Below, piece by piece: positions 5,124-39,145 of a stretch of DNA of 49,679 nucleotides. Origin of the DNA: an uncultured Pelagibacteraceae bacterium. Lineage in GTDB: Bacteria > Pseudomonadota > Alphaproteobacteria > Pelagibacterales > Pelagibacteraceae. How positions within the stretch are numbered: position 1 is the stretch's first letter; every line of letters starts with the position of its first letter. Made by a program: the position numbers and the translations under genes. A model generated the notes under the pieces. It did not search any database. It was not told where the DNA came from and worked only from the letters and a program-made list of their open reading frames with translations. The stretch is from contig CACPPH010000005.1 in the NCBI GenBank assembly GCA_902635795.1, positions 1 through 49,679 of the forward strand, in the 5' to 3' direction.

Positions 5124-5567
5124 ATGAGGAAAATAAAAACAATATTATTTGTTTGTACTGGAAACTCTGCGAGAAGCATAATAGCGGAAAGTATTGTAAA
5201 CAATAATTTCCGAAATCAATTCATCGCATTTAGCGCTGGAAGTAATCCTTCAGGGAAAATCAATCCCTACATTAAAGAGTATCTTGAAGGAAAAAAATTT
5301 AATTTAGCCACGTATTATTCGAAAAATTTTGATGAATTTTTAAAAAATGATATTGATATTGATTACGTGATTACAGTTTGTAATAACGCCAATAAAGAAG
5401 TTTGTCCTGTATGGCCCAAAAAAAAGACCATTACGCACTGGGACATCGCGGACCCTGTTGAAAAAATTAAAAAAACTAAAAATAAAGATAAAATAAATTT
5501 AATAGCTGAAGAAACTTATAATATAATTAATGAAAAAATTAAACATTGGGTAAAAAATGAAAAGTAA
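5124..5567 (+). CDS. arsC: arsenate reductase, LMW-phosphatase (thioredoxin-coupled) type
   Basis: VCTGNSARS P-loop, VITVCNNANKEVCPVWP, THWDIADPV. Confidence 0.87.
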   Translation: MRKIKTILFVCTGNSARSIIAESIVNNNFRNQFIAFSAGSNPSGKINPYIKEYLEGKKFNLATYYSKNFDEFLKNDIDIDYVITVCNNANKEVCPVWPKKKTITHWDIADPVEKIKKTKNKDKINLIAEETYNIINEKIKHWVKNEK

Positions 5568-6204
5568 AAAGATATTTATTGGTGAATTTATAGGAAGTTG
5601 TTTTTTAGTCATGATTATTGTTGGTTCAGGTATTATGGCTCAAAATCTAACTGATGATATCGCTGTAATGTTAATAGCGAATACTTTAGCTACAGGTGCA
5701 GGATTATTTGTTCTGATTACTTCAATCGGTGATATCTCCGGCGCACATTTCAATCCTGTCGTTACTTTAGCAATGTATTTTACCAACAAGATTAAAAAAA
5801 ATTTAATTATCACTTATATCTCTGCTCAAATCTTAGGTTGCATGTTAGGGGTAATGTTAGCAAATTTTATGTTTGATCTTCCTTTGTTGCAGCTTTCACA
5901 GAAGATTAGACCTGGAATAAATATTTTTACAGCTGAGATCATTGCAACTTTTGGATTAATTTTTGTGATATTTGGATCTTTAAAGAGCGGCAAACTTGTG
6001 GTCGCTTCATCAGTAGCTACTTTTATTACAGCGGGGTATTGGTTTACCTCTTCAACTTCATTTGCAAATCCAGCGGTAGCAATCGCAAGAACTTTTACAG
6101 ACACATTTACTGGAATTAATTACTTAAATACTCCTAGCTATATCATTGCTGAGATGCTTGGTGGAATATTGGCTGTCTATTTAATCAGAAAAATTATTTT
6201 GTAA
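5557..6204 (+). CDS. aquaporin/MIP-family channel
   Basis: Two NPx boxes: SGAHFNPVVTLAMYF and SFANPAVAIARTF; six-TM pattern; start overlaps the arsC end. Confidence 0.92.
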   Translation: MKSKKIFIGEFIGSCFLVMIIVGSGIMAQNLTDDIAVMLIANTLATGAGLFVLITSIGDISGAHFNPVVTLAMYFTNKIKKNLIITYISAQILGCMLGVMLANFMFDLPLLQLSQKIRPGINIFTAEIIATFGLIFVIFGSLKSGKLVVASSVATFITAGYWFTSSTSFANPAVAIARTFTDTFTGINYLNTPSYIIAEMLGGILAVYLIRKIIL

Positions 6205-6212
6205 TTGGAGGC

Positions 6213-6243
6213 CAGCCCAAGGAAATATTGATACCTTGGGCTG
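6213..6243. terminator. 10-bp perfect hairpin between convergent genes
   Basis: CAGCCCAAGG-aaatattgata-CCTTGGGCTG; lies between stops of convergent aquaporin and ppx; no clear U-tract. Confidence 0.5.
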
Positions 6244-6344
6244 ATGGGCTAATTAATTAACAACACAGTTGGGAGACTGTTAATCAGTTAATAATATATA
6301 AATGCTAAAAAAATATTTAAATTAAGTTAAAGATTTATTAATTT

Positions 6345-7850
6345 TCAAGAATAAATGATATTGGAATCGACATTCATCTCTCTTGCCAGGTTTTTAAGTC
6401 TTTTAGTTACTTGTTTTGAGACAATATCGCTATGATTGTTAGGTATTTTCAAAAAAATAGTCTTATTTCTTTTATAAATTTTAAATTCATCTAACAACAA
6501 AGAAGACATGCTAGTGAGTGACTCTGCTAATCTTAAAGCAGATCCCACTTGCTTTGAGGATAAAATTTCGTTGTTATTTAATAAGGATAAAAACTGATAA
6601 TTCGGATTATATTTTAAGCCACAATGTCTCCAAAAACTTGCTGATGCAACTTTTACTCTATCTCTATGTTCTAGTTTTAGTAATGGAGTATTTAACACTT
6701 CCATAAAAACTAATTCTGCTTTTTGAAAAGCTCCTAGGCCCCAATCCATTTTACTTAAGATGCAAGCCAAGGTTAGTAATCTTCGATTAAAATATTCGTT
6801 GTCTTCAAATAATGGTGAAATAAAATTAAAATATTTCTCAAAACTCTTTCCATAGTCCCCTTTTTTAAAAGATATACCGTCAGTTTTTAATTTGAAAATT
6901 TCATCCTCGCTCATTCCTTGGTTTATAATTGTATTCATATGTCCCTCTCTCAGTCCACTGATTGAGCAAATAACTTTTGAGGGGCTTGCTGCTTCAATTA
7001 TTTCGTTTAGTATTATAGAGCTAAAAGGTAAATAGGGAGTTCTAGATTTAGTAATATATTCCATTGATTTCAAAGATGATTTATTAAATTTTGAAATTCT
7101 ATTTAAGTATTTTACTGCTACATCTTTTGAGAGTTTATATTGATGCAAAATATGTAATGGGTGTTTTTCTTTAAAGAGATGATATTTAAATAATGATCTC
7201 CAAGTCCCTCCTACCAAATAAATATTTTTAAATTTCTTTTTAGAAAGCCATTTTTCATCTCTTAAAAGTTTTCTAACATATTTTCCCAAATTTCTTTTTT
7301 TTATAATAGGATTATTTTCAAGTCTTAATACTCCAAGAGGTAAAGAGGTTGTTTCAAAAATTTGATTTTTAGAAACTCTGGCAAGTTCTAAACTTCCACC
7401 TCCTAAATCTGCAACTAATCCATCTACTTCATCAAATCCTACCATTACACCATTTGCTGATGTTCTTGCTTCTTCCTCGCCAGATAATACTAGTGGTTTT
7501 TTATTAAATATTTTTTCAATTTCTCTTAAAAATTCACTTGCATCAGTGGCCTCTCTAAAAGCTGCTGTTGCAATAATTTCTAAATCTTGAACGTCTGAAA
7601 TATCTAAAATTTCTTTAAATCTATTTAGAACTTTTAAAGAACCTTTAATTCCATCGGGATTTAGTTTTTTAGATTTATCTAAATTTTTTCCAAGTTTGCA
7701 AACTGCTTTTTCATTAAAGACTGGGATTGGAGAAATTTTAAAATTATCGTATATGAGCATTCTTACTGAATTTGATCCAAGATCTATTATGGCTTGCTTA
7801 GACTTTTTATTAGACTGAAATTTAAAAAGATTTTTTAATTCTGGTTTCAT
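6345..7850 (-). CDS. ppx: exopolyphosphatase Ppx/GppA family
   Basis: AIIDLGSNSVRMLIYD, ATAAFREATD, GLVADLGGGSLELA. Confidence 0.92.
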   Translation of the reverse strand: MKPELKNLFKFQSNKKSKQAIIDLGSNSVRMLIYDNFKISPIPVFNEKAVCKLGKNLDKSKKLNPDGIKGSLKVLNRFKEILDISDVQDLEIIATAAFREATDASEFLREIEKIFNKKPLVLSGEEEARTSANGVMVGFDEVDGLVADLGGGSLELARVSKNQIFETTSLPLGVLRLENNPIIKKRNLGKYVRKLLRDEKWLSKKKFKNIYLVGGTWRSLFKYHLFKEKHPLHILHQYKLSKDVAVKYLNRISKFNKSSLKSMEYITKSRTPYLPFSSIILNEIIEAASPSKVICSISGLREGHMNTIINQGMSEDEIFKLKTDGISFKKGDYGKSFEKYFNFISPLFEDNEYFNRRLLTLACILSKMDWGLGAFQKAELVFMEVLNTPLLKLEHRDRVKVASASFWRHCGLKYNPNYQFLSLLNNNEILSSKQVGSALRLAESLTSMSSLLLDEFKIYKRNKTIFLKIPNNHSDIVSKQVTKRLKNLAREMNVDSNIIYS

Positions 7851-9973
7851 TTTACTAATCTTAAATTTTGAGGTTTAGCTCTTAAAATTGACTTACCACG
7901 ACCTGATAAACTTGGGTTCTTCATGAAATAGGAATGTGCGGAAAAGCCTTTTTCTTGTTCTTTATGGTAGTTTCCCAAACTATCTAAATACCATGTTTCT
8001 GATTTATCTTTAAAGTTAGCTAACATAATTTGATCTAAAATTTGCTCATGCACAGTATTGTTTTCTATCGGAATTATAATTTCAATTCTTCTATCTAAAT
8101 TTCTAGGCATTAAATCTGCAGATGAAATATATACCTGATTCTCTCGAGAGGGCATAGAGCTACCATTTGCAAAACAATAAATTCTTGAGTGTTCTAAAAA
8201 TCTGCCAATAAGGCTTTTTACTTTTATATTTTCAGATTGACCTTTAATTCCAGGTCTTAAGCAACACACTCCTCTTACTGATAAATTTATTTTTACTCCT
8301 GCGTTTGAAGCTTCATAAAATTTCTTAATAATTCCAGGGTCTACAAGAGAATTCATTTTTGCCCATATTTCTGCAGGTTTTCCTTTACTTGCATTTACAA
8401 TTTCATTTTCAATTTTTTCTTCAAAAAAATTCCTGCTATTTAATGGAGACATAAAAATTTTATTCAATTTTTTTGGTTTTGCATAACCAGTTACATAATT
8501 GAAAAATTTTTCGACATCTTTGGCCAAGTCTTGATTAGAGCTAAACAGTGATAAGTCAGTATAAATTTTTGCGTTAATTGGATGATAGTTTCCTGTACCT
8601 AAGTGAACATAGCTTCGCGTTTTAGCTCCTTCTTTTCTTAAAACTAAACTTGCCTTTGCATGCGTTTTATATTTTGCGAATCCGTAAACAATTTGAACGC
8701 CAGCTTTCTCTAGTTTCCTAGATAATTCAATATTAGCTTCCTCATCAAATCGAGCTTTTATTTCTATTACGGCTGTAACAACTTTTCCGTTTTCTGCTGC
8801 TCTACTTAGTGCTTTTACGATAGGAGAGTCAGGTGTGGTTCGATACAAAGTTTGTTTGATACCGATAACTTTGGGATCTTTTGCTGCAGCTTCTAAAAAT
8901 TGAATTACTACATCAAAAGTTTCAAAAGGGTGGTGTACAACAAAATCTTTACTTCTTATAGCTGAAAAAAATTTATCATCAAATTCCTTCAATCTTTCAA
9001 CTTCTCTAGGATTAAACTTTTTAAATCTCAGCTTTGGATCTTTCTTTTTACAAATTTCATCTATATCTTGTATTCCAACCAATCCTTCAACCTCATAAAT
9101 ATGATCTTCATCCATTTTAAATTTTTTTGAAATAAAATTTAAAAGTTTTTTGTTTGAATTAGTGATTACTTCGAGTTTAACTACGTTTCCCCTTCTTCTT
9201 TTCTTAATTGCTTTTTCAAAATATCTCACAAGATCAGCAGCTTCATCATCTATTTCAATTTCGCTGTCTCTAATTATTTTAAACTGCAAACTTGCCTCGA
9301 TATTATGGTCTGGAAATATTTCATTAGCAAATTTACAAATTACGTCATCAATTGTGACAAATTCATTTATTGTTTCAGAATTGTTTAGAGATACAAATTT
9401 TGGAAGTGCTCTTGGTATAACTATAATTGCATTTAGTTCTCTTTTTTTTTTTATTCTAGTCATTCTTAGTAAAATTGCTTGGCCTTTATTTGGTATAAAA
9501 GGAAAGGGATGTGATGGGTCAATGGCAGTAGGTGTTATTATAGGATAAATTGTTTCCTGAAAATATTCTCTTAGATACATAAGATCCTTCTTATTTAGTT
9601 CTGACATTTTTCGAATGAAAATTTTTTCTTTCGATAGCTCTTTTTTCAACTCTAGGAATGCTTCGTTTTGCTTCTTTAATAGATCTTTAGTTTTTAATAC
9701 GACCCTATTCAATTGATCCTCTGCAGTTAATCCATCTGCGCTTAATTCGTCAAAACCATCTTTAATTTGATTAAAAAGTCCAGCGACTCTTACCATAAAA
9801 AATTCATCTAAATTTGTACCTGCGATTGATAAAAATTTTACTCTTTCAAATAGAGGATTTGTTTTATCTTTTGATTCTTCTAAAACACGATCATTAAACT
9901 GAAGCCAAGATAATTCTCTGTTTATGAGTTGATTGCTAATATTAGCGTTTTCTGAAAATGATGCTTTCGACAT
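7847..9973 (-). CDS. ppk1: polyphosphate kinase
   Basis: NRELSWLQFNDRVLEE, IGIKQTLYRT, RSYVHLGTGNYH, SSADLMPRNLDRRIE. Confidence 0.96.
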   Translation of the reverse strand: MSKASFSENANISNQLINRELSWLQFNDRVLEESKDKTNPLFERVKFLSIAGTNLDEFFMVRVAGLFNQIKDGFDELSADGLTAEDQLNRVVLKTKDLLKKQNEAFLELKKELSKEKIFIRKMSELNKKDLMYLREYFQETIYPIITPTAIDPSHPFPFIPNKGQAILLRMTRIKKKRELNAIIVIPRALPKFVSLNNSETINEFVTIDDVICKFANEIFPDHNIEASLQFKIIRDSEIEIDDEAADLVRYFEKAIKKRRRGNVVKLEVITNSNKKLLNFISKKFKMDEDHIYEVEGLVGIQDIDEICKKKDPKLRFKKFNPREVERLKEFDDKFFSAIRSKDFVVHHPFETFDVVIQFLEAAAKDPKVIGIKQTLYRTTPDSPIVKALSRAAENGKVVTAVIEIKARFDEEANIELSRKLEKAGVQIVYGFAKYKTHAKASLVLRKEGAKTRSYVHLGTGNYHPINAKIYTDLSLFSSNQDLAKDVEKFFNYVTGYAKPKKLNKIFMSPLNSRNFFEEKIENEIVNASKGKPAEIWAKMNSLVDPGIIKKFYEASNAGVKINLSVRGVCCLRPGIKGQSENIKVKSLIGRFLEHSRIYCFANGSSMPSRENQVYISSADLMPRNLDRRIEIIIPIENNTVHEQILDQIMLANFKDKSETWYLDSLGNYHKEQEKGFSAHSYFMKNPSLSGRGKSILRAKPQNLRLVK

Positions 9974-9995
9974 ATTTAAATGTTAAATTAAAAAT

Positions 9996-10520
9996 ATGTT
10001 TAAATTATATGCGATGAGACATGCTAAATCTAGTTGGGATTTTCCAAATTTAGATGATCATGACAGGCCATTGAATAAAAGAGGGGTAAATTCAGCAAAA
10101 TTAATTTGTGAATTTTTTATTAAAAAGAAATTAAAATTTGATTTAGTTTATTGCTCATCCTCTAAAAGGACAATACAAACATTAAATATATTGTCAGAAA
10201 AAATCAGTTTTAAGAAAATTATTAAAAAAAAAGCGCTTTATCATGCTAGTGAGGATGAAATTATTCATATCTTAAAACAAACAGTTGATAATTATAAAAC
10301 TTTACTTTTAATCAATCATGAACCTTCAATTAGTGAACTCATAAATCGAATCTGTCTTAAAGAAAACTCTGAACAATTTGAAAATTTAAAAAGAAAATTT
10401 CCTACTGCAGCCGTTGCTGAAATAAGTTTTAATTTCAATGATTGGGAAAAGTTATCAGAAGTTAAAGGAAAATTAATATCATTTATAAAGCCAAAAGATC
10501 TTCAAACATCTAAGGAATAG
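9996..10520 (+). CDS. SixA-like histidine phosphatase
   Basis: YAMRHAKSSWDFPNLDDHDRPLNKRG motif. Confidence 0.88.
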   Translation: MFKLYAMRHAKSSWDFPNLDDHDRPLNKRGVNSAKLICEFFIKKKLKFDLVYCSSSKRTIQTLNILSEKISFKKIIKKKALYHASEDEIIHILKQTVDNYKTLLLINHEPSISELINRICLKENSEQFENLKRKFPTAAVAEISFNFNDWEKLSEVKGKLISFIKPKDLQTSKE

Positions 10521-11185
10521 CCAGCAGATCTTACTGTTCTGATAAGATCTTTCTTGCCATCAATATTTATTGCTTTTCTTAGTCTTCTTATATGAACATC
10601 TATAGTTCTGGACTCAACATAAATATCATCTCCCCATACAGAATTTAGAAGTTGCTCACGCGAATATACTCTTTTTGGATTCTTTATTAAAAAATCAATT
10701 AGTTTAAATTCGGTTGGGCCGACTATAACTTGTTTATCTGCTCTATAAACTCTTCGTTGAACTCTATCTACTTTAAGATCCTCAAATACTACAACATCAG
10801 CGGCAACACTTGGTTTAGATCTCTTTAATAAAGCGTTAATTCTTGCAATAAGTTCTTTTTGGCTGAATGGCTTAGTTACATAGTCATCAGCTCCTGTTTC
10901 AAATCCTTTAAGTTTGTCTTCTTCCTCACCTTTGGCTGTTAACATAATGATAGGGATATTTTTGTGAAGATTGCTTCTTTTCAAATTTTTACAGACTTCA
11001 ACACCTGAAATATCTGGCAACATCCAATCTAATAAAATTAAATCAGGATTTTTTTCCTTTATATTTCTAATAGCGTCTTCTCCATTGACTGCATAATCAA
11101 CTTTGTGACCCTCTTTTTCTAAATTGTATTTAAGTAAAGTTACGATGGGCATTTCATCTTCAACAATGAATAAATTTGCCCTCAT
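10502..11185 (-). CDS. phoB: phosphate regulon response regulator
   Basis: Receiver domain (LILLDWMLPDISG) plus OmpR/PhoB winged helix (RTIDVHIRRLRKAI); next to phoU/pst. Confidence 0.95.
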   Translation of the reverse strand: MRANLFIVEDEMPIVTLLKYNLEKEGHKVDYAVNGEDAIRNIKEKNPDLILLDWMLPDISGVEVCKNLKRSNLHKNIPIIMLTAKGEEEDKLKGFETGADDYVTKPFSQKELIARINALLKRSKPSVAADVVVFEDLKVDRVQRRVYRADKQVIVGPTEFKLIDFLIKNPKRVYSREQLLNSVWGDDIYVESRTIDVHIRRLRKAINIDGKKDLIRTVRSAGYSLDV

Positions 11186-11865
11186 TATCCTTTTGGTCGG
11201 TCTCCCTCTAAATAATCTCCTGTAATCAGAAAATAAACTTGCTCTGCAATATTGGTTGCATGATCTCCAATCCTCTCAATATTTTTAAGCATGAAAAGTA
11301 GTTGGGTTACTTTTTGTATATCGTTTTTATTTTTTTCTAAATGCTTTACTGCAGCTTCCATATTAGAATTAGTCATTTGATCTATTTCTTCATCAGAATT
11401 CCAAACATTTTCTGCTGTATCTTTAGCTCTATGTAAATACGAATTTAAAACTGCATTGACTTGTTTTGATGCTTTTAAACCAGCTATTTCGAAATTTTTA
11501 GTAATATCATTAGGTAAATCAGTTCCAATTTTAGTTAATCGTTTTGAGATGTTTTTTGCTAAATCACCAATTCTCTCTAAGTCTGAAGAAACTTTTAAGG
11601 CAACAACTGTTTCTCTTAAATCTATTGCCATAGGTTGCCTTAAGGCAATCAAATTTACAACTTGCTCTTCTATATTTATTTCATACTTATCAGTCAATTC
11701 GTCATCTTTGATAGATTTTTCTGCTAAACTAATGTCTTTTTTAACTAAAGATTGAATAGTGTTTTCAAGCTGTTTCTCAACTCCAGTTCCCATTTTCACT
11801 ATTGTATCTTTTAATAACTGAAGTTGCTCTTCGTAAGATTTTACAATGTGCGGTTTTTCACTCAT
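11185..11865 (-). CDS. phoU: phosphate transport regulator PhoU
   Basis: PhoU repeats, DLERIGDLAKNI / NIERIGDHATNIAE. Confidence 0.96.
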   Translation of the reverse strand: MSEKPHIVKSYEEQLQLLKDTIVKMGTGVEKQLENTIQSLVKKDISLAEKSIKDDELTDKYEINIEEQVVNLIALRQPMAIDLRETVVALKVSSDLERIGDLAKNISKRLTKIGTDLPNDITKNFEIAGLKASKQVNAVLNSYLHRAKDTAENVWNSDEEIDQMTNSNMEAAVKHLEKNKNDIQKVTQLLFMLKNIERIGDHATNIAEQVYFLITGDYLEGDRPKG

Positions 11866-12620
11866 TAACCAAACCTTCCTGTAATATAATCCTGAGTTTG
11901 CTGATTATCAGGATTTTTAAATATTTTATCTGTTGGTCCAAATTCTATAAGTTTTCCCAAATGAAAGAAACCTGTTTTTTGAGATACCCTAGCTGCTTGT
12001 GACATTGAGTGGGTAACTATCACAATTGTGACCTCTTTTTTAAGATCATCTATAAGTTCTTCAATTTGAGCTGTTGCTATTGGGTCAAGCGCTGAACATG
12101 GTTCGTCCATAAGAATCACTTCTGGACTTACAGATATAGCTCTAGCAATACATAGTCGTTGCTGTTGACCTCCTGATAAACCAGTTCCGATTTCATCAAG
12201 TCTATCTTTAACTTCGTTCCACAAGGCAGCTTTTTTCAAACTTGTTTCAACTATTTGATCCATTTCTTCTTTGCTCTGTGCAATACCGTGAATAGTAGGA
12301 CCATAAGCTACATTTTCATAAATTGTTTTAGGGAATGGATTGGGTTTTTGAAAAACCATACCAACGTTCTCCCTAAGTCTCACAACATCTAACTTTCTTG
12401 AATTCAGTTCTAGGTTGTCCATTTTAATACTGCCTTCAACTCTACAAATTTCTATGACGTCGTTCATCCTGTTCAAGCATCTTAAGAAAGTAGACTTTCC
12501 ACACCCAGATGGTCCAATTAAAGCTGTAACTTCTTTTTCTGCTATATCTATAGAGACGTCAAATAATGCCTGTTTGGATCCGTAATAAACATTTACATTT
12601 TCCGCTTTTATTTTACTCAT
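11865..12620 (-). CDS. pstB: phosphate ABC transporter ATPase
   Basis: Walker [37 protein letters not shown]. Confidence 0.97.
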
Positions 12621-13916
12621 TTAACTCCATTTCTTTTCAAATTTGTGTCTAACGATTTGAGCTGCCAAGTTCATTAAAATTAAAAAAGCTAGAAGCACCA
12701 TAATACATGCAGATACTTTTTCAACAAAACCCCTCTCAGCACTTTCTGACCATATATATATCTGAACTGGTAAACTTGCAGCAGGATCAACTGGCGTACC
12801 AGGTATTGTATTCACAAAAGCAACCATTCCTATTAAAATTAAAGGGGCTGTTTCCCCTAAAGCTTGAGCCAAGCCAATTATCGTTCCAGATAAAGTTCCA
12901 GGCATTGATAGTGGCACAGTATGATGCATGGTTGTTTGCATATTACTTGCACCCATCGCTAAAGCAGCTTCTCTTATACTTGGGGGAACAGCTTTTAAAG
13001 AAGCTCTTGCAGCAATAATTATTGTTGGTAATGTCATAAGAGACAAAGTAATTCCTCCAACAAGTGGTGTCGATCTTGGTAAATTAAAAACTGCTAATAA
13101 AATACCAAGACCTAGCAAACCAAATACTATCGATGGAACAGCTGCCAAATTGTTAATGTTTACTTCTATAAAATCTGTAAATTTATTTTTTGGTGCAAAC
13201 TCCTCGAGATAAATTGCAGCTAGCACTGCAACAGGAAATGAAAACGCTAAACATACTAGTATACTAAAAACTGTTCCCATAAACGAGCTAGCTATACCTG
13301 CTAGTTCTGCCTCTCTTGAATCAGGACTTGTAAAAAAACTAATGTTAAACTCTAATAAAATATCTCCTCTTTCATTAAGCATATCGTAAATCTGCAACTG
13401 GTAATCATTTACTCTTCTATTCTCCTCAGGAATATCTCTTGGATAATTTCCCTTATGAACTTGATCAACATCATCAGAAGCTGTTAATTTTATGGGCACT
13501 ATTTTACCTAGATAGTCTGGATTTTTTAAAAGTAGATCTTTAACCTCTGCCTCATATTTATACGAAACCATTTGTATCAATTGACGATCCTCTTCTTCAG
13601 GAAGTCCAGGATCTAATGAGGTCATAGCTTTGTAAGCAACATCATAATAGTCTGCATTTTCTAAATCATCTTTTGATGGGCTTTCTGCATCGATTAAAAG
13701 TAATTCTTTATCATAATGAACTTCTGTTACTATCCAAGTTTTTTGGAAAGCTGAGTAACCTTTTGAAAATATCTGAAACATAAAAACTGCTAAAAAGCTT
13801 AAAGCTAATCCTATAGCTATTTTGCCATACCATTGAAATCTTCTTTCAGCGTTATATCTTTTTTTTAATAAATTTTTCTTAAAACTATTCATATTTTTCC
13901 CTATATTTTTTAACAA
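12621..13916 (-). CDS. pstA: phosphate ABC transporter permease PstA
   Basis: BPD permease domain (EAALAMGASNMQTTMHHTVPLSMPGTLSGTIIGLAQALGETAPL); long N-terminal periplasmic segment; actual start may be the internal Met at ~13892. Confidence 0.94.
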   Translation of the reverse strand: MLKNIGKNMNSFKKNLLKKRYNAERRFQWYGKIAIGLALSFLAVFMFQIFSKGYSAFQKTWIVTEVHYDKELLLIDAESPSKDDLENADYYDVAYKAMTSLDPGLPEEEDRQLIQMVSYKYEAEVKDLLLKNPDYLGKIVPIKLTASDDVDQVHKGNYPRDIPEENRRVNDYQLQIYDMLNERGDILLEFNISFFTSPDSREAELAGIASSFMGTVFSILVCLAFSFPVAVLAAIYLEEFAPKNKFTDFIEVNINNLAAVPSIVFGLLGLGILLAVFNLPRSTPLVGGITLSLMTLPTIIIAARASLKAVPPSIREAALAMGASNMQTTMHHTVPLSMPGTLSGTIIGLAQALGETAPLILIGMVAFVNTIPGTPVDPAASLPVQIYIWSESAERGFVEKVSACIMVLLAFLILMNLAAQIVRHKFEKKWS

Positions 13917-15261
13917 CTGAAAGAGCGATTACATTTAAGAATAAAGTTACTATAAATAAAGATATTCCTAATGCAAAAGCTGATTGAGTTTTTGGATCTC
14001 CAAATTGTTGGTCTCCAATTAAAATTACTACAATTTGCGCTGTAATGGTAGAAGTTGACTCAAGTGGATTCATTGTAAGATTAGCCGCTAGTCCTGAGGC
14101 CATTACAACAATCATTGTTTCTCCTACCGCTCTCGATACTGCTAAAAGTATCGAACCTACGATACCAGGTAGGGCTGCTGGAAAAATTACTTTTTTTACA
14201 GTTTCAGATTTTGTTGCGCCCATTGCGTAACTCCCATCTCTTAAATTTTGAGGTACTGCCGTCATAACGTCATCGCTTAGACTTGAAATAAAAGGAATTA
14301 TCATTACTCCCATAACTGCTCCTGCAGCTAAAGCGCTCTCCGCTGAAACTTCTAAACCCATAGCGTTACCAATTTCTTTAACAAAAGGACCGACGGTTAA
14401 AGCTGCAAAAAAACCATATACCACTGTTGGAATACCAGCTAAAATCTCAATAATAGGTTTCGCATATTTTCTTACGCCTCTTCCAGCATACTCAGATAGA
14501 TATATCCCACTCAGCAAACCTATGGGGATGGCAACACACATTGCAATAAAAGCAATAAAAAAAGTTCCAGCAAATAAAGGCACAGCTCCGAAAGCATCCT
14601 TCATTAATTCAGGATCTGGTTGGCCATCTCTTACAAAAGTTTTAGCAGGATACCAATGAGTTCCGAATATAAAGTCAAAGATTTTTACTGCTTGAAAAAA
14701 CCTAATCGCTTCGAATAAAAGTGAAAAAACTATTCCGATTGTAACTAAAACTGCGCCTAATGATGCAACAAATAACACCCATTTAAGAAAAATTTCTACT
14801 GGTTCTCTCATTCGATCATTTTTCTGAACAGATCTATACGCAAAACTCAGAGAGAAAATTAAAATTGCTAAAATAATTGCTACTTTAGCGCTGTTAGCTA
14901 TTCCTTTTAATTGAATGTACTTATTAGCAGACTCATCTAGAAAATTAGTAATATTTCCCGTGTAAGTTCCTGCGGCTAATGCTTTAACCTTTGTGTAAAT
15001 AAGCTGAAGCTCATTTTTAGTTAAGTTCTGATCAGTGTAATCTTGTAAAATAAATGTTTTAACTATTGATGGTTCAAAAACTGACCAAAGAGCAAAAATT
15101 ATTAATGCTGGTGCAGCACACCAAGCAGCTAAATAATATCCATAAAATTTTGGTAATGCCGTAAGTCTTTGTGATGATTGAATAACTAGAGCTTTTTTTC
15201 TACCGAAATAATAACTTGTGAAAGCTAAGAGAATAATAAAAGTTACAAGTATTAAATTCAT
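13885..15261 (-). CDS. pstC: phosphate ABC transporter permease PstC
   Basis: BPD permease domain (SYAMGATKSETVKKVIFPAALPGIVGSILLAVSRAVGETM). Confidence 0.94.
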   Translation of the reverse strand: MNLILVTFIILLAFTSYYFGRKKALVIQSSQRLTALPKFYGYYLAAWCAAPALIIFALWSVFEPSIVKTFILQDYTDQNLTKNELQLIYTKVKALAAGTYTGNITNFLDESANKYIQLKGIANSAKVAIILAILIFSLSFAYRSVQKNDRMREPVEIFLKWVLFVASLGAVLVTIGIVFSLLFEAIRFFQAVKIFDFIFGTHWYPAKTFVRDGQPDPELMKDAFGAVPLFAGTFFIAFIAMCVAIPIGLLSGIYLSEYAGRGVRKYAKPIIEILAGIPTVVYGFFAALTVGPFVKEIGNAMGLEVSAESALAAGAVMGVMIIPFISSLSDDVMTAVPQNLRDGSYAMGATKSETVKKVIFPAALPGIVGSILLAVSRAVGETMIVVMASGLAANLTMNPLESTSTITAQIVVILIGDQQFGDPKTQSAFALGISLFIVTLFLNVIALSVVKKYREKYE

Positions 15262-15278
15262 ATTGAGCTTCCAGAGAT

Positions 15279-15305
15279 AAAAAGGGGGTAAAATACCCCC
15301 TTTTT
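15279..15305 (-). terminator. intercistronic hairpin/terminator between pstS and pstC
   Basis: Perfect palindrome AAAAAGGGGGTAaaaTACCCCCTTTTT, 15 nt after the pstS stop; minus-strand RNA ends in a U run. Confidence 0.8.
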
Positions 15306-15320
15306 GTTTAATTGATACTA

Positions 15321-16325
15321 CTACTTCTTAGCAGGCATGTTAACTAACTTCGTGGCGTTAGTTCTAGATGTTTTGTATAACTTGCCATCTAGAGGTACTA
15401 GCCCGATATCAGTTAAATAACCTTTATTACCCATAGCTTTTTTACTTGTGAACTCTTTTACGAATTCATGTAAGCCAGGTACAACGCCCACGTGAGCTTT
15501 TTTCACATAGAAGAATAAAGGTCTTGCAACTGCGTAACTGTAATCTTGAATCGAAGATAGACTTGGTTGACCACCTTCAATGCTTGCAGCTTGCAATTTA
15601 TCTTTTGCAGCTAAGAAATAACTGAAACCAAAGAAACCGAACATTTCTTTGTCCGCAGCTAATTTTTGAATAATAAGTGAGTCGTTCTCACCAACTTCAA
15701 TTACCGCACCATCTTCTCTTAACGCTTTATATTTAGCGCCAGCTTTTTTAGAAGCATCATCGATACCTTTTTTCATTACTAATGAATTCCAAGCATCTCT
15801 TGTTCCTGATGTTCCTGGAGGCACCATAACTTTGATAGGGTAGTTTGGTAATGATGGGTCGATATCACTCCAATTTTTATATGGATTTGGTACTAACGCA
15901 CCATCTTTAGCAACTTCTTTTGCTAATGCTGCCCATAATTGTTTTTTTGTAAAGTTTACTGGTTTAGCATCTTTAGAATAAGCTAACGTTATTCCGTCGT
16001 TACCAACTGTAATCTCTACGATTTCTTCAACACCATTTTTTTGACATAGCGCATACTCTTTAGCCTTCATAGCTCTAGATGCATTTGTTATGTCTGGGTG
16101 CTCTGTACCAACTCCAGCACAGAATAATTTAGCTCCACCACCTGTTCCTGTTGACTCGATTACTGGTGTTTTAAATTTACCAGACGAACCAAATCTTTCA
16201 GCAACGATTGTTGCATAAGGGAATACAGTTGAAGAACCTACGATTTTAATCTGATCTCTAGCTTGAGCAGAAGTTACAACTAACATTGCAACTAATGAAG
16301 CTAAAGCGATTGATAGTTTTTTCAT
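15321..16325 (-). CDS. pstS: phosphate-binding periplasmic protein
   Basis: Signal peptide; IKIVGSSTVFPYATIVAERF, phosphate-binding SBP pattern; upstream of pstCAB. Confidence 0.95.
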   Translation of the reverse strand: MKKLSIALASLVAMLVVTSAQARDQIKIVGSSTVFPYATIVAERFGSSGKFKTPVIESTGTGGGAKLFCAGVGTEHPDITNASRAMKAKEYALCQKNGVEEIVEITVGNDGITLAYSKDAKPVNFTKKQLWAALAKEVAKDGALVPNPYKNWSDIDPSLPNYPIKVMVPPGTSGTRDAWNSLVMKKGIDDASKKAGAKYKALREDGAVIEVGENDSLIIQKLAADKEMFGFFGFSYFLAAKDKLQAASIEGGQPSLSSIQDYSYAVARPLFFYVKKAHVGVVPGLHEFVKEFTSKKAMGNKGYLTDIGLVPLDGKLYKTSRTNATKLVNMPAKK

Positions 16326-16393
16326 TGTTTATCCTTTCATTTATTAATTAATTAACAAACATTGGATTCATAAAATTAAGAGGATTCTTAATT

Positions 16394-16411
16394 ATTACAG
16401 ATATGTTACAA
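16394..16411 (-). promoter_or_regulatory. candidate Pho box upstream of pstS
   Basis: Minus strand TTGTAACATATCTGTAAT: two ~7-bp TGTAAYA-like repeats at 11-bp spacing, about 70 nt upstream of the pstS ATG; resembles the known Pho-box consensus CTGTCATA-N-CTGTCAT. Confidence 0.75.
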
Positions 16412-16432
16412 ATTTATTAAAATGATAACTTT

Positions 16433-17044
16433 TTAGTTGAACTTTCTAGTTATCTCGATTTGTTGATAATCAGAGGCTAAAGACCCTCCGCAACTAAAAG
16501 GTCTTACTTTATTTTTAACTGCGTAGGTTTGAGTTGGCTTTAATGTAACTTCTAGTTGTACAAAGTTAACTAATTTTTGTGTAAAACTTTTATCATATCT
16601 CCAAGCATTCCATTGTGTTGGAGCGGTGAATACTTCACTTAAATAAGATGCAGCTTTTGAGTGAATCATATTGCTCTCGTTTTGTCCTTTTAAAAGATTA
16701 TTTTTAACTTTTTCAAAAATTTTTCTACATTTAATTGAGTCCGCCATGTACGAGTTAGCATTTAAATGAGTGCTCATCGGTGCTGACACAATTAATTGAA
16801 TTCCATCGTCTCTTCTAGAAAATAAAGCTTCAGTATAAATTGTAGATACATTTTTATTATCTACTTCAAGAATTAAATCGTTTTTAGCTTGCTTAAGATC
16901 GTTTTTTAATCTTAAAAGTCCTAGATCAAAAACTGTAAGAGGTTGAGAACTTAAAGTTTTCTCTATTAAATTTACATCTGCTTTAACAGTTGTAAAAATT
17001 AAACTTAATAAAACCAGACTTATATAATTCATTATTCTAGTCAT
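16433..17044 (-). CDS. putative periplasmic protein of unknown function within the pho cluster
   Basis: 203 aa, signal peptide MTRIMNYISLVLLSLIFTTVKA; no recognisable domain; between phoR and pstS, same strand. Confidence 0.8.
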   Translation of the reverse strand: MTRIMNYISLVLLSLIFTTVKADVNLIEKTLSSQPLTVFDLGLLRLKNDLKQAKNDLILEVDNKNVSTIYTEALFSRRDDGIQLIVSAPMSTHLNANSYMADSIKCRKIFEKVKNNLLKGQNESNMIHSKAASYLSEVFTAPTQWNAWRYDKSFTQKLVNFVQLEVTLKPTQTYAVKNKVRPFSCGGSLASDYQQIEITRKFN

Positions 17045-17107
17045 ACTAGAATTTTAACTATTTCGCTGTCTATCTCAAGACAAAATATAATTAAACTTTA
17101 ATATTTG

Positions 17108-18304
17108 CTAAAATTTAGAAAAATGAACCTTTATTTCAGTGCCACTTTGAGCTTCACTTTTTATTTCTAACTCACCTCTATGCTGATTAACAATGTGCTT
17201 CACGATCGCCATTCCAAGTCCAGTACCACCAACTTTTTTACTTTTAGCAGCATCAACTCTAAAAAATCTTTCTGTTATTCTAGGAATTTGTTCAGTTGGA
17301 ATTCCAATACCATTATCTTTAATGGACACGGTATAAGAGTCTCCTATAACTTTTCCGTTACCTTGCCCACAATTAATTTCAATCTTTTTATTTTTATCTG
17401 AATATTTTATACTATTATCAATAATATTTGAAAAAACTTCAATTAATTTTTCATGATCGCCTTTTATAAAGAAATCATCTTTTATATTATTTTTAAATTC
17501 AAAAGGCTTTAAATTTTTTTGATGGATATCTTCAACGTTATTTAAAATTTCTTTTAAATTTACTTTATCTTGAGGCTGTATATGTTCCTCTAACTCAATT
17601 TTACTTAGTGAAAGTAAATCTTTAATTAAGCTTTCCATCCTATCAGCTTGCTCAAGCATTATCGGTATGAATTTTTTTTGTGCTTCTAAATCATCTTTCG
17701 CATGTCCGCTTATAGTTTCTAGAAATCCTTTAATAGAAACTAAAGGCGTTTTAAGTTCATGGCTTACATTAGCTACAAAATCAGATTTGAACCTTTGCGC
17801 TTTTATAATATCGGTTAAATCTTTTAGAAATAAAACAACTGAGTCAGGATCATCGACATATGAGGTCGGTCCAGAGAATAGATGAACTTTAAAGAACTGA
17901 AATGAGGGAGAGGATAATTCTAAATCCATAGTAATTGTCTCTTTTTTTAAAAGCACTAAATCAATATTTTGGAGTAAATCAGGAACTCTCAATAAAGTAG
18001 CCACGTGCTTATTTAAATTATTTTCTCCAAATTTTTTTTTTGCACTACTATTAAAAAATTTGATATTTTTAAATTTATCTACAATTAAAATTAGATCATC
18101 GATTTGATTTATAATCTTTACTTGCTCATTAGTTTTTTCAATATTTTCATTGGTGATGTCTTCTATTCCCTCTTCATTATTACTTGGTTTGTTCTCTCTC
18201 TTAATATCGGATCTTGCCTCCATACCTGCTACAATTGATTTTCTGGATACTGCAATTACTACGATCACAATTATTCCAGCAAGAGAGTAAAATAAGAATT
18301 CCAT
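17108..18304 (-). CDS. phoR: phosphate regulon sensor histidine kinase
   Basis: N-term TM, PAS-like segment, FVANVSHELKTPLVSIKGFLETI H-box, N/G boxes; in pho cluster. Confidence 0.92.
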   Translation of the reverse strand: MEFLFYSLAGIIVIVVIAVSRKSIVAGMEARSDIKRENKPSNNEEGIEDITNENIEKTNEQVKIINQIDDLILIVDKFKNIKFFNSSAKKKFGENNLNKHVATLLRVPDLLQNIDLVLLKKETITMDLELSSPSFQFFKVHLFSGPTSYVDDPDSVVLFLKDLTDIIKAQRFKSDFVANVSHELKTPLVSIKGFLETISGHAKDDLEAQKKFIPIMLEQADRMESLIKDLLSLSKIELEEHIQPQDKVNLKEILNNVEDIHQKNLKPFEFKNNIKDDFFIKGDHEKLIEVFSNIIDNSIKYSDKNKKIEINCGQGNGKVIGDSYTVSIKDNGIGIPTEQIPRITERFFRVDAAKSKKVGGTGLGMAIVKHIVNQHRGELEIKSEAQSGTEIKVHFSKF

Positions 18305-18346
18305 GATTTGATTATACTTTAAAGATATAGACTAAAGAAATATTTT

Positions 18347-19354
18347 TTAGCGGTTTGATACCGCACTATTTAAAAAGATTTTTGCGCAATTTTCCCAGGT
18401 ATATTTTTTTGCATGCTCAATGCAAGCGCTTCTATCTGACTTAAGAGCTTCAAGTGCTGCTTTTTTAAGATCGTTGTTTAACGAGCCAATGTTTGTACCG
18501 TTAAAAATATCTTTTGGTCCTGCTACTGGGTAAGCAGCTACTGGCAATCCACATTTTAAAGCTTCTATAATTACAATTCCAAAAGTATCTGTTTTGCTCG
18601 GGAAAACAAAAACATCAGAAGAAGCAAAGTAACTTGCAAGCTCACCATTTGTTCTCTCTCCTTTAAATATTGCTTCAGGGTATTCTTTTTTAAGTTTATC
18701 TAAATCAGGTCCTTTACCAACAACTAGTTTCGTGCCTTCTAACTCTAAATCCAGAAATGCTCTGATGTTCTTCTCAATAGATACCCTACCCACATAAAGA
18801 TAAATTGGTCTTTTATACTCTAAATTAATCTTTTTAGGCTTTTGAAATGCCCCGTGGTTTGCCCCTCTTGTCCAAACAACCATCTTATCCTTATCAAAAC
18901 CAATTTCTTGAAGTTCATCTTTCATTGATTGAGTTGTTACTAAAATTTTTTCCGCCTTTGAATGAAATCCTTTAAGGAACTTTTGAGCAAGCTTAATTGG
19001 CAAATAAGGATAGTATAGCTTCAAATATTTATCAAATTGAGTATGGTAAGACGTGGTAAACTTAAGCTTATTTTTTACACAATATCTTTTTGCAAATATT
19101 CCTATCGGGCCTTCTGTAGCTATGTGAATTATGTCAGCATCGGCTTTAGAAATTAATCTACCTACTCTAGGCCAAACATTAAGAGAAAGTTTTATTTCAT
19201 TATATTTTGGCATTGGCACAGTAAAAAATTGATTAGGTTCAATATATTCAACCTGATGTCCAATTTTTTTTAATTCATCGCCAAGATTTTTTAAAGTTCT
19301 ACAAACACCATTCACTTGCGGATACCAGGCATCAGTAACGATTAAAATTTTCAT
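18347..19354 (-). CDS. agt: GT4-family glycosyltransferase, Agt-like (glycolipid synthesis under Pi limitation)
   Basis: MKILIVTDAWYPQVNGVCRTL, YVGRVSIEKNI, FVFPSKTDTFGIVIIEALKCGLPVAAYPV; stop overlaps the metallophosphoesterase start region; symbol by analogy with SAR11 lipid-renovation genes. Confidence 0.85.
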   Translation of the reverse strand: MKILIVTDAWYPQVNGVCRTLKNLGDELKKIGHQVEYIEPNQFFTVPMPKYNEIKLSLNVWPRVGRLISKADADIIHIATEGPIGIFAKRYCVKNKLKFTTSYHTQFDKYLKLYYPYLPIKLAQKFLKGFHSKAEKILVTTQSMKDELQEIGFDKDKMVVWTRGANHGAFQKPKKINLEYKRPIYLYVGRVSIEKNIRAFLDLELEGTKLVVGKGPDLDKLKKEYPEAIFKGERTNGELASYFASSDVFVFPSKTDTFGIVIIEALKCGLPVAAYPVAGPKDIFNGTNIGSLNNDLKKAALEALKSDRSACIEHAKKYTWENCAKIFLNSAVSNR

Positions 19355-20205
19355 TTATTTACTACTTTTAGATATGGCTCGTAATCGACAACATCACCTC
19401 TGATTTTGTCCCAGTCAATAACTTCCATGCGACCATCGAAATGTTCTACCAAGAAAGTTGCACCTTCTACCCAATCACCACAATTTAAATATCTCACACC
19501 ATCTAAGACTTGATCGGCAGAATGATGAATATGACCACAAATTATACCATCAACATTTTTTCTTTTAGCATAAGTTGCTAAAGTTTTTTCATAATCGCCT
19601 ATATATTTTACAGCGTTCTTTACTTTGTGTTTTAAATATTTTGCTAAAGACCAATTACCCTTTTTAAATAATCTTCTAAAAAAATTGATAACAACATTAA
19701 ACTCAAGTAAAAAACTATAAGCAATAGCTCCTACTTTTGATAACCATGGAGCATATTTCATCACTCCATCCCAGGCATCACCATGAACAACAATATACTT
19801 TTTATTATCTGCCGAGACATGTATAGCTCTGTTAATTACTTCGATATCTCCAAAGTGTAATGGTAAAAACTTTCTAAACACATCATCATGATTTCCAACA
19901 ATATATTTTACTTTTGTTCCATGTCTAGCTTTTCTTAATGTTTTTTGAATCACATCATTATGTTCTTGAGGCCAGTAAAATTTTGTTTTTAAAGCCCAAA
20001 CATCAATGATATCACCAACAAGATATAAATTCTCTGACCTTGAATGTTTGTAAAATTCTAATAATTTGTTTGCTGCACTTTTTCTATGCCCAAGGTGCAA
20101 GTCGGAAATAAAGATACTTTTGTAATTTAAAATCTTTCCCTTAGATTTAGTTTGAATTGTTTCCATATTTTTTATAAAACGAATCTCTAGTAAAAGTAGA
20201 ATCAT
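19351..20205 (-). CDS. plcP: metallophosphoesterase, PlcP-like phospholipase C candidate
   Basis: Calcineurin-like motifs FISDLHLGHRK, LVGDIIDVW, IVGNHDD, VVHGDAWD, ICGHIHH; likely start at internal Met ~20166. Confidence 0.85.
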   Translation of the reverse strand: MILLLLEIRFIKNMETIQTKSKGKILNYKSIFISDLHLGHRKSAANKLLEFYKHSRSENLYLVGDIIDVWALKTKFYWPQEHNDVIQKTLRKARHGTKVKYIVGNHDDVFRKFLPLHFGDIEVINRAIHVSADNKKYIVVHGDAWDGVMKYAPWLSKVGAIAYSFLLEFNVVINFFRRLFKKGNWSLAKYLKHKVKNAVKYIGDYEKTLATYAKRKNVDGIICGHIHHSADQVLDGVRYLNCGDWVEGATFLVEHFDGRMEVIDWDKIRGDVVDYEPYLKVVNK

Positions 20206-20210
20206 AAATA

Positions 20211-20228
20211 TGTTACAGAATTGTTAAA
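20211..20228 (-). promoter_or_regulatory. candidate Pho box upstream of plcP/agt
   Basis: Minus strand TTTAACA-ATTC-TGTAACA, 11-bp direct-repeat spacing, same TGTAACA half-site as the pstS box. Confidence 0.55.
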
Positions 20229-20230
20229 AT

Positions 20231-21127
20231 ATGAATAAAAAATTGAATTTTGCAGTGATATTTAACGCAAATGCAGCAGGTGGTAGAAAACTTAAATTAA
20301 TTAACAAGGTCATTAATCTTTTAGAAAAAAATCATATTGTAGATCTTTTTAAAACCGAAAGCGAAGATCATGCAAGGAATGTATTTAAAGAATTGTCTAA
20401 TAAAAAATTTGATCGGTTAGTATTTGCTGGCGGTGACGGGAGCGTATGTTTTGGTATTAATGAAATGTTTAAAAGTGATAATCTAAAAGACAAATTAGTT
20501 GGATACATACCTGCTGGCACTGCAAATATTTTACAAATAGAAACTCAAATTAAGAAAAAGGCGGAGGAGATTTACAACGTCCTAGTATCAGATAATCATA
20601 AGAAAATTTCATTAGCAAAAATAAATGATAAGTACTTTTTCTTGATGGCTGGTGTAGGTTTTGACTCTCGAATTGTTGAGTCCATAAATACTAATATTAA
20701 AAAGTATCTTGGAAAAGTAATTTTCGCTTTAAAAGGTTTTCAGCATTTTTTATTTTTAAAAAATAATAAAATGGAGGTTAAGGTAGATAATGAAAAAATT
20801 ATGGCTGATTGGATTTTATGTACTAATTCAAAATACTATGCTGGTCCCCATTCTATAACTAATGATACCAATATATTTGAAAACAGGATAGTGGCTTACA
20901 TATTTAAAGACCTGACCAGAATAAAATTACTTTATTATGTTTGGTTAATTTTAACCAAAGGCGACTTAACTCCTGCAAAAAGTGTAATTAAAAAAGAATT
21001 GAACAGATTAAAAATAAATGGTGTAAACAATAAAGTTCTATCACAAGTTGATGGTGAAAATTGTGGTTACGTAAACAGTCTTGAAATCCAAAAAACAGAC
21101 AGATTTATAAATTTATTAGTTCCGTAA
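20231..21127 (+). CDS. diacylglycerol kinase catalytic-domain protein
   Basis: VIFNANAAGGRK, VFAGGDGSVCFGINE, GYIPAGTANIL. Confidence 0.88.
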   Translation: MNKKLNFAVIFNANAAGGRKLKLINKVINLLEKNHIVDLFKTESEDHARNVFKELSNKKFDRLVFAGGDGSVCFGINEMFKSDNLKDKLVGYIPAGTANILQIETQIKKKAEEIYNVLVSDNHKKISLAKINDKYFFLMAGVGFDSRIVESINTNIKKYLGKVIFALKGFQHFLFLKNNKMEVKVDNEKIMADWILCTNSKYYAGPHSITNDTNIFENRIVAYIFKDLTRIKLLYYVWLILTKGDLTPAKSVIKKELNRLKINGVNNKVLSQVDGENCGYVNSLEIQKTDRFINLLVP

Positions 21128-21426: not shown

Positions 21427-21445
21427 TTTATAAAGTAATTAAATG

Positions 21446-21469
21446 CCCCTGATTTAAAAACATCAGGGG
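21446..21469. terminator. bidirectional hairpin terminator between convergent genes
   Basis: CCCCTGAT-ttaaaaac-ATCAGGGG. Confidence 0.75.
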
Positions 21470-21470
21470 T

Positions 21471-37995: not shown

Positions 37996-38187
37996 TTATT
38001 TTCCTCTAGCGATATCAATTTGCAGCTGAGCGTAATAATCAGCAGCATCTTCATCTGTCCAATCTGGATTATTTTTTTTCCACTCAGCTAATGCTTCTTC
38101 GTGAGCTATTAAATCCTTATGATCAGGTTCATAACCTTCATACTGATCTTCTTGTTGATCAATAGATAAATTTTTAACTTTATCCAT
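37996..38187 (-). CDS. small acidic protein of unknown function
   Basis: 63-aa ORF MDKVKNLSIDQQEDQYEGYEPDHKD...; start overlaps the end of the NUMOD3 gene. Confidence 0.6.
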   Translation of the reverse strand: MDKVKNLSIDQQEDQYEGYEPDHKDLIAHEEALAEWKKNNPDWTDEDAADYYAQLQIDIARGK

Positions 38188-39145
38188 AATGTTTTCTCCT
38201 TTCTATTGCTTTTAACCTAATTTTTTGTTTTGTTTCTTCAGGGTGTTTTCGACCGAACATACCATTTTTGTTACCTTTAACCGAAAGGCCAATTTTATTT
38301 TTATGTTCCTCTGTCCATTTTTTTCCAAAATTGTGATGATTTTTCCCTGACCAAGCATGTTTTGCTGCCTCAGTCCATCTTTTTAAAGATCTTAATCTTA
38401 TTTTATTTTTAGTTGCTAAAGAATGTTTTTTGCCAAACATATGATTTTTTTTGCCCATTTGTGACAACGATGTTTTTTTTCTCGTTTCAAAAGAAATTAT
38501 TTTTCCCATATGAGCTTTTGACAGTTTCTTTTTTACTTCTTCTTTTAAAGGAATGCCCTTTCTCGCCTTAGCTGCTAAAATGAAGGGATGGTTACGATTA
38601 AGTTTTTTTCCAAACATTTTGTGTTGTTTGCCCTTATGTTTACCTTTCCTGTTGATAGACATTAGGATTTTACTTTGCTCAGAATGGATCATTCCTTTGC
38701 CTGCTTGAGATATTTTCTTTTTTGTCTCTAACGAATGTTTTTTTCCTCTCATTGGATGATTTTTTTGATTCCACTCTGAGATTTTTTTCCTAGTTTCATC
38801 GCTGTGTTTCTTACCTAACATAGTAGGAGTCTTATTAAAAATTGCTGGAAATGCATTTTTATTTATCCAAATTGTTCTTTTGTAAATTTTTTTATTTACT
38901 TTTTGCTCATGTAATCTTGCTTTATTAACAGTGTCAAAGGTCCAACAAAGTTTAATTTTAAAATTTGATGGATTATGTTTAAATTCATTTTTTATTTTCT
39001 TGCTGCTTGTAAAGTAAACTACTCCTAGATCTTTTATTGGAGGCACCTTATTTCCCCATCTAACACCATGGTATTTTTTGTTGTCTGACAATCTAGTTAC
39101 TAAATAAGTATAAGGTTTGATTTTATTAAATTCTTTTGTTTTCAT
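38180..39145 (-). CDS. GIY-YIG/NUMOD3 homing-endonuclease-like protein
   Basis: GIY-YIG-like N-terminus (YTYLVTRLSDNKKYHGVRWG ... HEQKV) followed by about 7-8 NUMOD3-like repeats (MFGKKHS.ET..KI.). Confidence 0.85.
   Translation of the reverse strand: MKTKEFNKIKPYTYLVTRLSDNKKYHGVRWGNKVPPIKDLGVVYFTSSKKIKNEFKHNPSNFKIKLCWTFDTVNKARLHEQKVNKKIYKRTIWINKNAFPAIFNKTPTMLGKKHSDETRKKISEWNQKNHPMRGKKHSLETKKKISQAGKGMIHSEQSKILMSINRKGKHKGKQHKMFGKKLNRNHPFILAAKARKGIPLKEEVKKKLSKAHMGKIISFETRKKTSLSQMGKKNHMFGKKHSLATKNKIRLRSLKRWTEAAKHAWSGKNHHNFGKKWTEEHKNKIGLSVKGNKNGMFGRKHPEETKQKIRLKAIERRKHYG

Follow-up and report, generated by a model that had tools for sequence, protein, structure and literature searches.

We found that a 49.7-kb stretch of DNA (hereafter, the window) from a SAR11 (Pelagibacteraceae) genome (G000; 39 contigs, 65% complete) very probably carries a phosphate-stress island in its glycolipid version, in which PhoB-driven phosphate import would be combined with a PlcP/Agt membrane lipid swap and with lipid recycling by DagK; the enzyme activities, the transcriptional response, the read-through into phoR and the role of DagK are predicted from the sequence. 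No other group of marine heterotrophs is as abundant as SAR11, whose phosphorus demand is lowered by the replacement of phospholipids with glycolipids. The best matches were uncultured Pelagibacteraceae AG-series isolates and SAR11 PRT-SC02. On the minus strand, the order of transcription is plcP-like phosphoesterase, GT4 glycosyltransferase, phoR, a gene for an uncharacterized protein, pstS, pstC, pstA, pstB, phoU and phoB, with a dagK-like gene on the plus strand. The features are as follows.

5124-5567, plus strand, low-molecular-weight (low-Mr) phosphatase (family match)
5557-6204, plus strand, aquaporin/GlpF-type channel (family match)
6345-7850, minus strand, ppx (named by eye)
7847-9973, minus strand, ppk (named by eye)
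9996-10520, plus strand, sixA-like gene (family match)
10502..11185, minus strand, phoB, Pho regulon response regulator (NCBIfam TIGR02154, 328.6 bits, cut-off 296.2)
11185..11865, minus strand, phoU (NCBIfam TIGR02135, 193 bits, cut-off 130)
11865..12620, minus strand, pstB (NCBIfam TIGR00972, 399 bits, cut-off 343)
12621..13916, minus strand, pstA, long form with DUF3333 (NCBIfam TIGR00974, 206 bits, cut-off 193; PF11812)
13885..15261, minus strand, pstC, long form with DUF3708 (NCBIfam TIGR02138, 282 bits, cut-off 196; PF12501)
15321..16325, minus strand, pstS, phosphate-binding protein (PF12849, PBP_like_2, 3e-44; place in the pst operon)
16393..16421, minus strand, tandem Pho box of pstS (perfect pattern matches)
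16433..17044, minus strand, gene for an uncharacterized, apparently secreted product (conserved in SAR11 islands, two invariant cysteines)
17108..18304, minus strand, phoR, sensor kinase (TIGR02966, 296 bits, just under the cut-off of 334)
18347..19354, minus strand, predicted agt, GT4 diacylglycerol glycosyltransferase (15/15 GTcp residues, 66% identity to the HTCC7211-like Agt, tree)
19351..20166 (listed ORF to 20205), minus strand, predicted plcP, phospholipase-C-type metallophosphoesterase (68% identity to the HTCC7211-like PlcP, motifs)
20211..20228, minus strand, Pho box of plcP, TTTAACAATTCTGTAACA (perfect pattern match)
20231..21127, plus strand, divergent dagK-like lipid kinase (PF00781, 3e-21, motifs)
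21445..21470, bidirectional terminator-like stem-loop beyond dagK (stem-loop scan)

The earlier note on this DNA had described a pho/pst-phoR run joined to a GT4 gene and a metallophosphoesterase gene that overlap on the same strand, with a divergent diacylglycerol-kinase-like gene, and every one of these ORFs is present where it had been placed; the GT4 and phosphoesterase ORFs share 4 bp. The extents needed amendment in two respects, as plcP is likelier to start at 20166 than at 20205 and the island is wider, including the left part at 5124-10520. Within the limits of each contig, the layout is kept in all 80 loci retrieved from named SAR11 contigs, and the arrangement is therefore not a product of chance. 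It is common to all retrieved SAR11 relatives, which rules out that it is unique to this genome.

Two genomes served as the main references. One of them (G035; one contig of 1,456,888 bp) is presumably HTCC7211, as its Agt (334 residues, 37.9 kDa) agrees in mass and carries the same residues as GTcp, and the other (G147; 1,410,127 bp) we take to be HIMB59. In alignment with the SAR11 GTcp, the glycosyltransferase of the window has all 15 functional residues at the same numbering (G16, L56, G82, G85, H104, T162, R163, R190, K195, D256, T257, F258, G259, E264 and W320), including the H104-D256 dyad for binding of the UDP-sugar and diacylglycerol (DAG) as well as R163 and W320, which contact DAG. 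These 15 residues were mutated in the study of HTCC7211 GTcp/Agt, where T162 is given as a DAG contact (PMC8231724), and E. coli expressing HTCC7211 Agt produces glycolipids (PMC4796936). The two motifs of the Agt/GTcp group, GRVAXEKN and FPSXTDTFG, occur as GRVSIEKN (with S in place of A) and FPSKTDTFG, identity to the G035 Agt is 66%, and trees place both Agt and PlcP among SAR11 and alphaproteobacterial homologues. The evidence thus supports the assignment of the GT4 gene to agt, as had been proposed from the sequence, and not to a non-lipid GT4 group, with DAG glycosylation as the predicted activity. UDP-glucose-dehydrogenase-type genes were found in the same genome, so glucuronosyl-DAG is a possible product.

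The phosphoesterase shares 68% identity with the G035 PlcP and about 48-56% with homologues adjoining Agt across the class. Its metal-binding motifs follow the PlcP set (D-x-H, GD, GNHD, H, GHxH) as DLHLG, GD, GNHD, HGD and GHIHH, aligned with the HTCC7211-like and class homologues, and it also carries a GDWVE motif. An alternative is that the pair belongs to lipopolysaccharide synthesis, as LpxH plus an RfaG-like core enzyme lying near pst by chance. Among named library models the phosphoesterase matches LpxH best, its only PDB matches are to LpxH (E 6e-4), and such genes have been called LpxH and RfaG in the HIMB59 island (PMC10734472). However, the scores fall far under the LpxH equivalog cut-offs (36.3 bits against 190.35, and 47.2 against 134), E. 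coli LpxH matches weakly over 44 residues only and has GNRD in place of GNHD, and the neighboring enzyme has all GTcp residues. In the tree, the phosphoesterase groups with agt-adjacent PlcP-like proteins apart from LpxH, although the sole LpxH included was that of E. coli, on a long branch. Scores, motifs and tree together led us to rule out the LpxH/RfaG reading, which we regard as highly improbable, and they support the proposed identification of the protein as PlcP, a predicted phospholipase C. A plcP mutant of Phaeobacter was complemented by HTCC7211 PlcP (PMC4796936). The genome encodes another metallophosphoesterase, on contig C13, which was considered as a second PlcP and rejected because its score, close to the cut-off, places it in the TIGR00282 type.

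The real start of plcP is probably the ATG at 20166 (METIQ...) instead of 20205, because in other genera the homologues begin to align near residue 13 and the additional codons are not an open frame. The listed 13-residue extension was also considered as a conserved short upstream ORF and discarded, as that frame contains stops in other genera. At 20166-20205, downstream of the plcP Pho box, a block reading ATGATTCnACT...AGAGATTCG is conserved across several genera beyond the needs of an untranslated leader.

The plcP gene was detected in 45 of 118 genomes of the family and in 13 of 20 of the same genus. Across the 118 genomes plcP and agt co-occur nearly always, strong agt matches accompanying plcP except at contig ends. 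Similar adjacency was seen in other Alphaproteobacteria, where agt adjoins plcP in 27 of 29 (short) PlcP loci and the Agt-clade motifs are shared with the Agrobacterium tumefaciens Agt; about 16 of the 29 also have a divergent dagK-like gene. The HTCC7211 module (type 2 plcP context, PMC4796936; GTcp, PMC8231724) resembles that of the window in its genes, in the position of plcP upstream of agt and in its catalytic residues. The island of G035 likewise follows the order phoR-unknown gene-pstSCAB-phoU-phoB-sixA-ppk-ppx with a divergent dagK. It differs by olsB-olsA (ornithine lipid acyltransferase-like) between phoR and agt, genes with OlsB- and OlsA-type acyltransferase matches that are both below the equivalog cut-offs. 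In the window, the phoR-agt gap is 42 bp and the HTCC7211-type olsBA is absent from it. An OlsB match was found in 12 of 118 genomes, only one of them among the 20 of the window's genus, and none was found in G000 (65% complete). The window thus appears to hold a glycolipid-only version of the island, a reading to be taken with caution at this completeness; in the two genera closest to the window, the island without ornithine-lipid genes predominates.

The flexible island fGIp-C of HIMB59 (PMC10734472) shares with the window genes for a Wzb-type phosphatase, GlpF, ppx, ppk, SixA, PhoB, PhoU, pst, PhoR and DGK, along with 'LpxH' and 'RfaG'. It differs in gene order, as the phosphatase and aquaporin genes separate plcP-agt from phoB. 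The pair was annotated there as LpxH and RfaG and no link to lipid renovation was made (PMC10734472). In G147 (L171:14809-16598), these genes carry the PlcP motifs GNHD and GDWVDSC and the Agt motifs GRVATEKN and FPSKTDTFG, with a Pho-box-like site in front, which suggests that they should be renamed plcP and agt. Earlier work has described the plcP-agt pair of SAR11 and its link to phosphate (PMC4796936, PMC8231724), and has placed pst and phoBR together in a single flexible island of SAR11 whose amino acid identity between genomospecies is <60% (PMC7318151). The contiguity of the island is not new, since the probable HTCC7211 genome has it too and islands of the HIMB59 type have it in part. 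Most of this biology is known, and what is added here is the Pho-box evidence, the version without olsBA, the exchange of half islands and the proposed renaming.

The site holds more than one allele. Two plcP-less genomes of the same genus (G004 and G079) have a short phoB-phoU-pstBACS-phoR allele at the same position, between gcrA and the emrE/epimerase genes, with pstS 64-66% identical; it is without the polyphosphate and lipid genes, and the left part of the island (5124-10520) is absent from it. In one locus of another genus (L130, genus g2), window positions 6000-18200 (ppx-ppk-sixA-phoBU-pst-unknown gene-phoR) match at 92-100% nucleotide identity, compared with about 72% outside this block (about 56-81% from 18200 onward and in the right flank), which indicates a recent cross-genus replacement that took in the pst half and left out the lipid half. 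L170 and other g2 genomes pair the same lipid half with the short pst allele (66-68%). The opposite patch was observed in L103 and L112, where the 5' part of phoR and agt are divergent within much more similar flanks, and taken with L130 this shows that breakpoints cluster within the first half of phoR, on its 5' side. The pst/phoR and lipid halves recombine independently, once across genera, so that lineages exchange the import/regulation genes and the lipid genes as separate units at a single chromosomal site. Such exchange, together with the pst allele that lacks lipid genes in many genomes, could also be accommodated if the genes are correctly named but only lie together in a flexible region, each under its own control, with the lipid genes answering to a signal other than phosphate. 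We consider this improbable, as a perfect Pho box conserved across genera lies directly before plcP and plcP is expressed under phosphorus deficiency in cultured marine bacteria (PMC4796936).

The Pho-box pattern was modelled on the pstS promoter (TKTAAYA-NNNN-TGTAAYA, 11-bp period), which has three half-sites with this period (TTTAATA-AATT-TGTAACA-TATC-TGTAATA). Only three perfect matches were found in the 49.7-kb window, two overlapping upstream of pstS and one upstream of plcP, against 0.025 expected per window in a first-order Markov simulation, a figure that flatters the result because the pattern was derived from these same sites. Support independent of the derivation comes from the plcP box, which is conserved between SAR11 genera even though their PlcP proteins are 25-45% different. 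The pattern scan revealed no Pho box before agt, phoR, the unknown gene or phoB of the window, and the stem-loop scan no terminator-like stem between plcP and pstS on the minus strand. As neither separates them, phoR may be co-transcribed with plcP-agt. A sigma-70 scan gave no more matches than in shuffled sequence, and no confident -10 box for plcP. A strong stem-loop (AAAAGGGGGT...ACCCCCTTTTT) was observed between pstS and pstC (15280-15305), possibly an mRNA processing or attenuation site favouring pstS.

The Pho boxes support a single PhoB regulon for the pst and lipid genes, and so uphold the suggestion of the earlier note that the module and its likely regulator form one stress island; the lipid swap is thereby tied to PhoB by sequence data. 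When phosphate is scarce, PhoR-PhoB would activate two leftward promoters, one before pstS for import and one before plcP, the latter transcribing plcP, agt and probably also phoR. PlcP would then cut the phosphate head groups from membrane phospholipids, and Agt would add glucose or glucuronic acid to the resulting DAG, yielding phosphorus-free glycolipids. DagK most likely would turn spare DAG into phosphatidic acid, for recycling or for return to phospholipids once phosphate is back.

The dagK-like protein belongs to the bacterial DAG kinase family (PF00781, 75.6 bits, cut-off 23.6), with the motifs GGDGS (residue 67), AGTAN and DGE and DgkB (2qv7) as its best PDB match. Its part in the island is less settled, as dagK-like genes are also found in genera g5 and g12 (L165, L166, L167, L168), divergent to phoR-pst or the pst operon and without plcP or agt in the stretch compared, and DagK may thus not belong solely to lipid renovation. 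The lipid pair could act as described while DagK serves as a lipid kinase of general use, either Pho-linked or housekeeping, that shares the intergenic region, and the absence of a Pho box aimed at dagK in the window (pattern scan) would agree with this. On the other hand, a divergent dagK-like gene accompanies about half of the class-wide PlcP loci, and in two SAR11 lineages (loci L083-L098 and L031/L032) dagK has a second Pho box aimed at it from 66 bp upstream. We regard the general-kinase role as rather unlikely, and retain recycling of DAG as the preferred role. In the window, the plcP box lies 44 bp before the plcP start codon, and its distance to the dagK ATG is 2 bp; in the HTCC7211-like genome the latter distance is 1 bp. 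This 1-2 bp geometry recurs in about 90 loci, which belong mainly to two genera and include that of the HTCC7211-like genome. Because the box ends so close to the dagK start codon, phosphorylated PhoB could block dagK while activating plcP-agt, a reciprocal switch that we propose only tentatively. If true, DAG would be directed to glycolipids under starvation and back to phospholipids on relief, and the lineages with a box 66 bp upstream would appear to have rewired dagK.

The gene at 16433-17044, between pstS and phoR, encodes an apparently secreted protein of about 205 residues with two invariant cysteines, conserved at 31-98% in SAR11 islands. Homologues (for example, L113:9485-10102 and L122:8918-9559) occur in plcP-bearing islands and in at least one genome without plcP (L118). 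Profile and sequence searches returned no Pfam, NCBIfam or PDB match, and the AF2 model, which is fairly confident (pLDDT 80), had no PDB fold match (best E 0.04, probability 0.16). Elsewhere in the window (38180-39145), a 321-residue protein is full of G(M)FGKKHS-type repeats that by eye resemble the NUMOD repeats of homing endonucleases.
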